From positions 1-58,610 of the forward strand of contig CALHSA010000005.1 of the NCBI GenBank assembly GCA_938038205.1: 58,610 bases of DNA, read 5' to 3'. Both the position numbers and the translations under genes were made by a program. The DNA comes from an uncultured bacterium. GTDB lineage: Bacteria; Bdellovibrionota_C; UBA2361; JANWWW01. Positions within the stretch are counted from its first letter, which is position 1, and the number at the start of each line of letters is the position of its first letter. A model generated the notes under the pieces. It had not been told where the DNA came from. It saw only the letters and a list, made by a program, of their open reading frames with translations, and searched no databases. Shown one piece after another: positions 56,293 to 58,610 of this stretch.

Positions 56293-57177
56293 ATGAAAAT
56301 TTTACTAATCCTTGATTCGATGAGTATAATTTTTAGAGCTTTCTATGGTACCCCCCGATTATCAACAAAAGAAGGCTTCCCAACTAACTCAATATACACT
56401 TTTACTAGGTTAGTGCTACAACTTAATGATAAGTTTAACTGTCCTTACTTTCTATTCACGTTTGACTCAGGCCGAGAAACTTTCAGACTTAAAATATCAA
56501 GTGATTACAAAGCGAATAGAGCAGAAATACCAGAGGATCTAAAAATTCAGATACCTGAGTGCTTAAAAATGATAAACTCACTTGGTTGTACAGTGTTACA
56601 AGTCTCAGGATACGAAGCTGATGATCTAATAGCTGAAGCCCTAAATCTAATTTATGATGAATTTGATTTGATCGTAATAGTAACCCTTGACAAAGATCTA
56701 ATGCAACTTGTAACAGGTTCAAAAGTTATTTTGTATGATCCATTCAAGGTTATTACTTACTCTGAACAAGATGTTATCAGGAAATACAATCTTAGTCCTA
56801 AACAGTTCCCAATTCTTCTTGCTTTGACAGGGGATGCCTCTGATAATGTAAAAGGTGTTCCCGGAATTGGGTTAAAACTCGGGTCAAAAATTGCCAAATC
56901 CTTTGAAAGTATTGAAGAGTTAATATCTGAGCTTGAGAACCCCTCGGGTAAACTAGATTCTAAAATTTATGAAAACAAGGAACTACTTCTAAAGAACATT
57001 GAACTGGTATATTTGACTCCAAAAGGTAATCTTTTAAAAAAAGAGGATGTACTTAGTGCTGCAAATAAGTTAAGTCTAACCACTGAATTTTTCCAGTTTT
57101 GTGAATTTTTTGAATTTAAGTCAATATTGAGAAAATATGAGACTAAATCAGCTTCTCCAAGCATTACAAGAGGATAA
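56293..57177 (+). CDS. DNA polymerase I, 5'-3' exonuclease part (separate gene)
   Basis: The N-terminal third of PolA stands alone here. All nuclease residues are seen: FDSGRETFRLK (near 60-70), GYEADDLIAEAL, VTLDKDLMQLV and LTGDASDNVKGVPGIGLK with its helix-hairpin-helix. It ends with FCEFFEFKSILRKYE, which is where this domain ends in normal PolA. 294 residues. The stop comes 41 bases into the polymerase gene. TAAACT 9 bases before the ATG is a likely -10. Confidence 0.9.
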   Translation: MKILLILDSMSIIFRAFYGTPRLSTKEGFPTNSIYTFTRLVLQLNDKFNCPYFLFTFDSGRETFRLKISSDYKANRAEIPEDLKIQIPECLKMINSLGCTVLQVSGYEADDLIAEALNLIYDEFDLIVIVTLDKDLMQLVTGSKVILYDPFKVITYSEQDVIRKYNLSPKQFPILLALTGDASDNVKGVPGIGLKLGSKIAKSFESIEELISELENPSGKLDSKIYENKELLLKNIELVYLTPKGNLLKKEDVLSAANKLSLTTEFFQFCEFFEFKSILRKYETKSASPSITRG

Positions 57178-58600
57178 TTTTGATCTTGAGACAATTAGAT
57201 CTAATAGAATAGTTTTTTTCCCTACACTTAAACAGATATACAAGAATTTCTCAACTCCTTCGAATAATTTTTACGATATAAATTTAGCCAAAATTCTAAT
57301 TAACTCAGAGGAAAGATCTTCAAAAACACACTTTTCAAGGGATGAGATCAGAAGGATTTTCGCTGATATTTTCAGCTTAGGATTAGAATCAGTATATGAA
57401 CTAGAAAATCACCTTACTTTTACGATAGCAAAAATGGAGGAGAAAGGTATTTTGATTGATTTGAAAAAACTTAAAGCTTTACAAAAAACAGCTAATGAAA
57501 AAATTCAAGAGATTGAAAGGGAGGTTTTCTCAAAAATTGGATCATACATCAACCTTAATTCCCCGAAACAAGTAGCTAAACTCCTCTTTGAAGATTTAAA
57601 CCTCCCTACAAAAGATTTGAAACGTGGAAAAACAGGCTATTCAACTGATTACGATACATTAGTTTACCTAAGCCAGTTTAGTGAGTTACCTAATTTAATT
57701 CTTCAACATAGATTATACGGAAAAGCAAAAAGCGCCTTTATAGATCCCCTAATAAAAAAAAGTAAGAACGAAATCATATACCCCAGAATAAACCAGATTG
57801 GTACAGCCACAGGGAGAATAACCTACGAGAATCCAAACATTCAAGCTCTACCCATAAAAGATGAGTTCATGTCGAAAATAAGGGACTGTATTCTGGCCGG
57901 CAAAAATAGAGTATTTATTCGAGCCGACTATAGTCAAATTGAGCTTAGAATCTTAGCACATTTATCTAAAGACCCATACCTAATTAACGCTTTTAATACG
58001 GACAAGGACATACACTCAGAGACTGCTCGGTTAATTTTCAATCTTAAAAAAGATTCAATTGTACAGCCCTGGCAGAGATCCGTCGGCAAAACTGTAAATT
58101 TTAGTATTCTATATGGAACAACCATTTTTGGTTTAGCAAAGGCTCTCTCAACTACTGAGGATCAAGCCTCTTTAATTTTGAAGAACTTTTTCCTTAAACT
58201 ATCCGGGGTAGATGATTACTTTAAAAATTTAACTAAAAAGGCACTTAAAGAGAAAAAAGTTAACTCTATTCTAGGAAGAATTCGATGGATAAATAATTTT
58301 AAGGGGTCAGAGCGAATAAGGGTGATTCGAAACTCACCAATTCAAGCAAGTGCATCCGATTTAATCAAAATTGCTATGAAAAATATAACTGATCAAATCT
58401 TACAACAGAAATTAGATTCGCATATACAAATACAGATTCATGATGAGCTGATAATAAATACGGCAAAGGATTCCTCTGAAATTGTTGCTAGCATTGTAAA
58501 AAATTGTATGGAAACTGCTTATAAACTTGATGTTCCTTTAAAAGTTGAAATATCTAAGGGAGAAACCTGGTATGAAACTACCATAAAGGGACATACTTAG
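57137..58600 (+). CDS. polA: DNA polymerase I, polymerase part without 3'-5' exonuclease
   Basis: Motif A is RADYSQIELRILAHLS, motif B RSVGKTVNFSILYGTTIFGLA, motif C QIHDELII, and QASASDLIKIAM is the last conserved helix, so the active site is intact. Only about 85 residues precede the thumb region (LENHLTFTIAKMEEKGILID). They resemble the end of the proofreading domain (DINLAKILIN), but its catalytic D-x-E is absent. 487 residues. The ATG at 57137 overlaps the first gene; the frame is +1 relative to it. Complete to its stop at 58600. Confidence 0.92.
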   Translation: MRLNQLLQALQEDNFDLETIRSNRIVFFPTLKQIYKNFSTPSNNFYDINLAKILINSEERSSKTHFSRDEIRRIFADIFSLGLESVYELENHLTFTIAKMEEKGILIDLKKLKALQKTANEKIQEIEREVFSKIGSYINLNSPKQVAKLLFEDLNLPTKDLKRGKTGYSTDYDTLVYLSQFSELPNLILQHRLYGKAKSAFIDPLIKKSKNEIIYPRINQIGTATGRITYENPNIQALPIKDEFMSKIRDCILAGKNRVFIRADYSQIELRILAHLSKDPYLINAFNTDKDIHSETARLIFNLKKDSIVQPWQRSVGKTVNFSILYGTTIFGLAKALSTTEDQASLILKNFFLKLSGVDDYFKNLTKKALKEKKVNSILGRIRWINNFKGSERIRVIRNSPIQASASDLIKIAMKNITDQILQQKLDSHIQIQIHDELIINTAKDSSEIVASIVKNCMETAYKLDVPLKVEISKGETWYETTIKGHT

Positions 58601-58610
58601 AGGGTTCACC

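Follow-up and report, generated by a model that had tools for sequence, protein, structure and literature searches.

DNA polymerase I (Pol I) is usually regarded as a single chain, within which a flap nuclease and a polymerase must hand over one nick. About half of the bacterial PolA1 enzymes have active-site substitutions in the 3′–5′ exonuclease, with the inactive domain kept in the single chain, and the 5′-nuclease is nearly universal in bacteria, either within one chain or encoded alone; solo forms are described chiefly in the absence of Pol I (PMC12926913). The same study reported PolA2 as the first case of a QxxLF clamp-binding consensus in a bacterial family A polymerase (PMC12926913). 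PolA-SSB primases, encoded on mobile elements together with an OB-fold SSB and a helicase and without a FEN gene, contain a family A polymerase with a truncated 3′–5′ exonuclease domain (PMC10061031), and HoLaMa—an engineered Klenow fragment lacking the 3′–5′ domain—still folds and retains polymerase activity, at roughly a tenth of the efficiency (PMC6457538). Our search of the open-access literature turned up no account of a chromosomal polA being split.

Here, we analysed a 58,610-nucleotide stretch of DNA (the window; contig C5) from the draft genome of an uncultured bacterium (G000; 1.22 Mb, 46 contigs, 81% complete), whose assembly was found to contain no 16S rRNA. Two overlapping frames of 294 and 487 residues, sharing 41 bases, had been reported there in a sequence-only reading and were borne out by the ORF coordinates. 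The locus comprises the following features:

56293–57177, + strand: 5′–3′ exonuclease/FEN gene (N-terminal third of Pol I), 294 aa; ORF, PF02739, PF01367
57137–58600, + strand: family A DNA polymerase gene (C-terminal part of Pol I), 487 aa; ORF, PF00476, Foldseek
57137–57177, + strand: overlap of the nuclease and polymerase genes, 41 nt, with the polymerase in the +1 frame and its ATG directly after the nuclease K-Y codons
57128–57130, + strand: polymerase-frame TGA, two codons 5′ of the ATG at 57137; three-frame translation
57137–57388, + strand: stretch replacing the 3′–5′ exonuclease domain, ~84 residues; alignment, length comparison, pLDDT
57926–57949, + strand: polymerase motif A, DYSQIELR; alignments
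58439–58447, + strand: polymerase motif C, HDE; alignments

Because of the in-frame TGA, the polymerase start, or any frameshift, is confined to positions 57131–57177. The polymerase gene is complete within the window and lies near the contig end, with the junction 1.4 kb from that end. A whole-genome search of G000 returned a single family A polymerase gene and a single 5′-nuclease gene, arguing that both parts of Pol I are likely in use. A short polymerase match on contig C41, considered as a second polA gene, was rejected as a contig overlap, since the last 141 nt of C5 (window positions 58470–58610) are an exact copy of C41:1–141. Leftover exact overlaps between contig ends are a possible product of short-read assemblers, and C5 and C41 are probably neighbours in the genome.

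The nuclease matched PF02739 (E=3.6e-42) and PF01367 (E=4.6e-15) in a Pfam search, had residues 22–266 of M. smegmatis Pol I as its best PDB match, and keeps the acidic metal-ligand set (LILDSMS, FTFDSG, YEADD, LDKD, GDASDN). The FEN-type 5′–3′ exonuclease domain of PolA1 is therefore present, but it sits on a separate protein. The polymerase (PF00476, E=2.1e-109, Pfam search) has the family A core with motifs A, B and C, its catalytic residues being kept in alignments (DYSQIELR, the R314/K318/F322/Y326 set, and HDE), so that the visible catalytic motifs of both proteins are indeed intact, as had been noted from the letters alone. Each protein covers its own section of NF004397, a full-length PolA model (positions 2–285 for the nuclease, 484–888 for the polymerase); together with the Pfam matches, this shows that the frames are not chance ORFs. 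The cut had been placed at a domain border in the earlier reading. Compared with single-chain PolA1, the pair has matching catalytic domains in equal order, making up two parts of NF004397/TIGR00593; however, it forms two chains, each of which scores under the whole-protein cut-offs of these models, and has ~84 residues in place of the 3′–5′ exonuclease domain. An AlphaFold model of the polymerase was modest (mean pLDDT 69.8, four sequences), with no confident fold for residues 1–68 (pLDDT <50); in a Foldseek search, the remainder matched the large fragment of Bacillus Pol I best (E about 1e-29; TM-score 0.75–0.78 by query length among the top ten matches).

The family comparison covered two draft genomes, G000 and G001, the latter from another genus and the only other genome available for the family and order. 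On G001 contig L033 (3.2 kb, minus strand), the nuclease stop at 2807 and the polymerase ATG at 2838 define an overlap of 32 nt, again in the +1 frame and with the ATG directly after the matching K-Y codons; this nuclease gene is cut by the contig end, leaving only the gene's end on L033. Alignment of the two polymerases runs from residue 1 practically to the end, with 45% identity and 65% similarity across 488 columns (using the ATG-started form, alongside which a TTG-started 503-aa reading of the L033 frame is also open), and the nuclease tails past K-Y are dissimilar (ETKSASPSITRG in G000, GLFEANNFS in G001). Beyond the ATG, the polymerase frame thus appears to be the one under selection. 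The comparison with related genomes that the sequence-only reading had proposed therefore uncovered the identical break—same junction, same frame, same ATG site—in an independently sequenced relative, supporting its option of a true two-gene PolA across these two genomes. Rather than residing on one polypeptide, as in PolA1, the two catalytic domains occupy two frames with a +1 shift in both genera.

The split coincides with a reduced interdomain region: from the end of the nuclease to the start of the thumb, the two family members have 117 and 122 aa, compared with 236–261 in fused relatives. PF01612 was absent from both split polymerases of the family (Pfam search), whereas it was present in the PolA of all eight class relatives tested, and alignment revealed neither the ExoII nor the ExoIII motif in the family polymerases. 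With no PF01612 and the region halved, the DnaQ-like 3′–5′ exonuclease domain of PolA1 is missing here. The D-x-E motif had been called absent; taken literally this does not hold, as the window polymerase reads D16-L17-E18, but the sister polymerase has D-L-D at that site and the tripeptide is probably due to chance or a relic, so the broader claim of absent proofreading stands, given the missing ExoII and ExoIII. By position and length, the 84-residue remnant would descend from the exonuclease domain, without significant sequence likeness: when its profile was compared with those of the exonuclease domain in fused relatives, the match probability was 3.8–8.5%, which is not significant. The PF01612 matches of both family members fall on other proteins; in G000, the match lies in a 316-aa frame on C16 (L055), which from its size and content we take to be RNase D-like.

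Set against the described systems, the window polymerase shares with Pol I enzymes carrying an inactive exonuclease (PMC12926913) the absence of proofreading alongside an intact polymerase core, yet these enzymes retain the domain in a single chain, whereas the window protein has lost most of it and is only one of two chains. Like HoLaMa, it is a polymerase domain without either nuclease; HoLaMa, however, is a laboratory construct (PMC6457538), and the window polymerase is natural and has a short N-terminal remnant. The nuclease resembles the solo 5′–3′ exonucleases (PMC12926913) in being a FEN-like enzyme as its own protein, but adjoins its own polymerase half. A QxxLF clamp-binding motif of the PolA2/APEX type was not found when we read the N-terminal region of either family polymerase.

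We consider it highly probable that the locus reflects a polA fission that has been inherited and yields a bicistronic FEN/polymerase pair, with independent initiation and loss of proofreading. A single-chain polA would have split in the common ancestor of the family, at the border between the 5′-nuclease and 3′–5′ exonuclease domains, and a +1 change of reading frame would have left an ATG—formed by the Tyr codon TAT and a following G—as the polymerase start; the order of events is presumptive. One two-gene message, presumably co-transcribed, would then give rise to separate proteins by independent initiation, that of the polymerase putatively at this ATG. The predicted products are a flap endonuclease acting as its own protein and a small polymerase that does not proofread, which together may accomplish the RNA primer removal and gap filling of Pol I. 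Because both proteins carry the catalytic residues for flap cleavage and gap filling, the pair most likely fulfils the role of Pol I in repair and in the removal of primers, with no proofreading.

Alternatively, ribosomes might undergo a programmed +1 frameshift in the overlap and so join the frames into one Pol I chain, perhaps beside the separate proteins. This option, too, had been raised beforehand, and the frame relation permits it: the +1 relative frame is common to both genomes, and in G000 a shift could take place within ~46 nt. We found no positive evidence in its favour, however, as by inspection the two overlaps have no slippery site or stop context in common. Their codons read TAT GAG ACT AAA TCA GCT TCT CCA AGC ATT ACA AGA GGA TAA in G000 and TAT GGA CTT TTC GAG GCT AAT AAC TTT AGT TGA in G001; a prfB-like CTT TGA occurs at neither stop, and CTT T in G001 only. 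The ATG at a matching place in both genomes and the strongly reduced interdomain region likewise speak against a frameshift, which we regard as very unlikely. Independent initiation is favoured because the ATG is shared, the polymerase is homologous from this ATG on, and a common slippery sequence is lacking. The shared position partly follows from the conserved Tyr codon and so, taken alone, supports initiation only weakly. Any likeness to a Shine-Dalgarno sequence 5′ of the polymerase ATG is slight, which means little because most gene starts in the window are likewise without one (a match of at most 3 nt in 32 of 41).

To place the split in its phylum, we considered 46 genomes, 44 of them from outside the family. 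A fused polA with a single polymerase frame of 901–1044 codons was present in 33 of the 44, and shorter frames in another nine, by their coordinates at or near a contig end (G025 and G031 were read directly). Seemingly short polymerase frames in G404, G367, G031 and G025 proved to be contig ends. G043 (60% complete) gave no polA match and G044 is a confused assembly, making both uninformative; in the latter, the polA match at C128:7365–8242 lies in two pieces on opposite strands, probably reflecting a local assembly inversion. Given the unbroken polA of 33 more distant relatives, the fused gene is likely the ancestral state. The sequence-only reading had held that close relatives with an uninterrupted polA would count against a split; unbroken genes do occur, in more distant genomes of the phylum, but the sister genus has the split and the split therefore stands.

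In a polymerase tree, the two family members formed one clade (100/100), whose position relative to 22 phylum sequences was not resolved owing to long branches. Such a placement would also suit a scenario in which the native polA was replaced by a ready-made gene pair acquired from some other lineage or from a mobile element, such as one with a PolA-SSB-like A-family polymerase, and mobile-element family A polymerases with truncated 3′–5′ exonuclease domains do exist (PMC10061031). Yet a tree joining the family to the phylum is no worse a fit (AU p=0.517), the genome has no other family A polymerase or 5′-nuclease, and mobile polymerases of the PolA-SSB kind are paired with an SSB rather than a FEN. 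The gene upstream of the pair, presumably a metK-like housekeeping gene as named by reading its sequence, points the same way. PolA-SSB primases are marked by an adjacent OB-fold SSB and D5-type helicase; read by eye, the first frames downstream of the pair, on L034, appear unrelated. A scan of viral contigs found no relative, and among genome contigs only three distant Bacillota MAG contigs matched. Acquisition is very unlikely in our view, and vertical descent of the family's polA within the phylum is the simpler reading.

Lastly, the idea that one intact polA merely looks divided, through faulty sequencing or assembly or through a frameshift mutation of recent date, can practically be ruled out, because two separate, distant assemblies share the split: although one +1 change would account for the frames of one genome alone and the gene is at a contig end, junction, frame and exonuclease loss recur at 45% identity in a separately assembled genome of the other genus, the junction is 1.4 kb away from the contig end, and base-calling cannot account for 120 missing residues.

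Besides the inherited fission proposed for the window's family, a survey of 388 genomes brought up, among the matches listed, the one-contig genome G281 of family f213, with a polymerase frame of 612 codons. Frames of 603–621 codons were present in all six f213 genomes sampled (G281, G421, G433, G443, G453 and G463; split-polA loci L052, L062, L066, L065, L063 and L064, respectively), and in the other families of f213's order polA is fused, fragments aside. As in the window, the 5′-nuclease gene lies directly upstream of a separate polymerase gene, with spacings that range from a 7-nt gap to a 4-nt overlap. In contrast to the window, the f213 polymerases, of Klenow type, keep the 3′–5′ exonuclease with its D-x-E (SFDIEATG), and begin, in all six cases, with M[KER]Q[FYA]SLF; this sliding-clamp-motif-like QxSLF agrees with the QxxLF clamp-binding consensus. 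The f213 split probably occurred independently of that in the window's family, the two families being unrelated and from different orders. Splitting of nuclease and polymerase is hence not unique to the window's family, and among the genomes examined it is combined with loss of the exonuclease domain only there. Whether polA fission occurred at least twice in bacteria and freed the new polymerase N-terminus to be remodelled in different ways—the window's family losing the proofreading domain, f213 gaining QxSLF while retaining proofreading—seems to us evenly balanced; if true, separate co-encoded subunits could replace the single-chain design of Pol I.

No Y-family polymerase (PF00817) was found in G000 or G001, both incomplete genomes; PF00817 was found in three of six class relatives tested. 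Given this observation in the two incomplete genomes, the non-proofreading Pol I could be the family's main error-prone polymerase. Its 487-aa polymerase resembles a natural counterpart of the proofreading-domain deletion in Klenow. More generally, the two-gene Pol I, known from the sequences of two draft genomes, constitutes a natural experiment on the need for domain linkage, and a lineage stably maintaining it would show that the covalent link between flap nuclease and polymerase is not essential.
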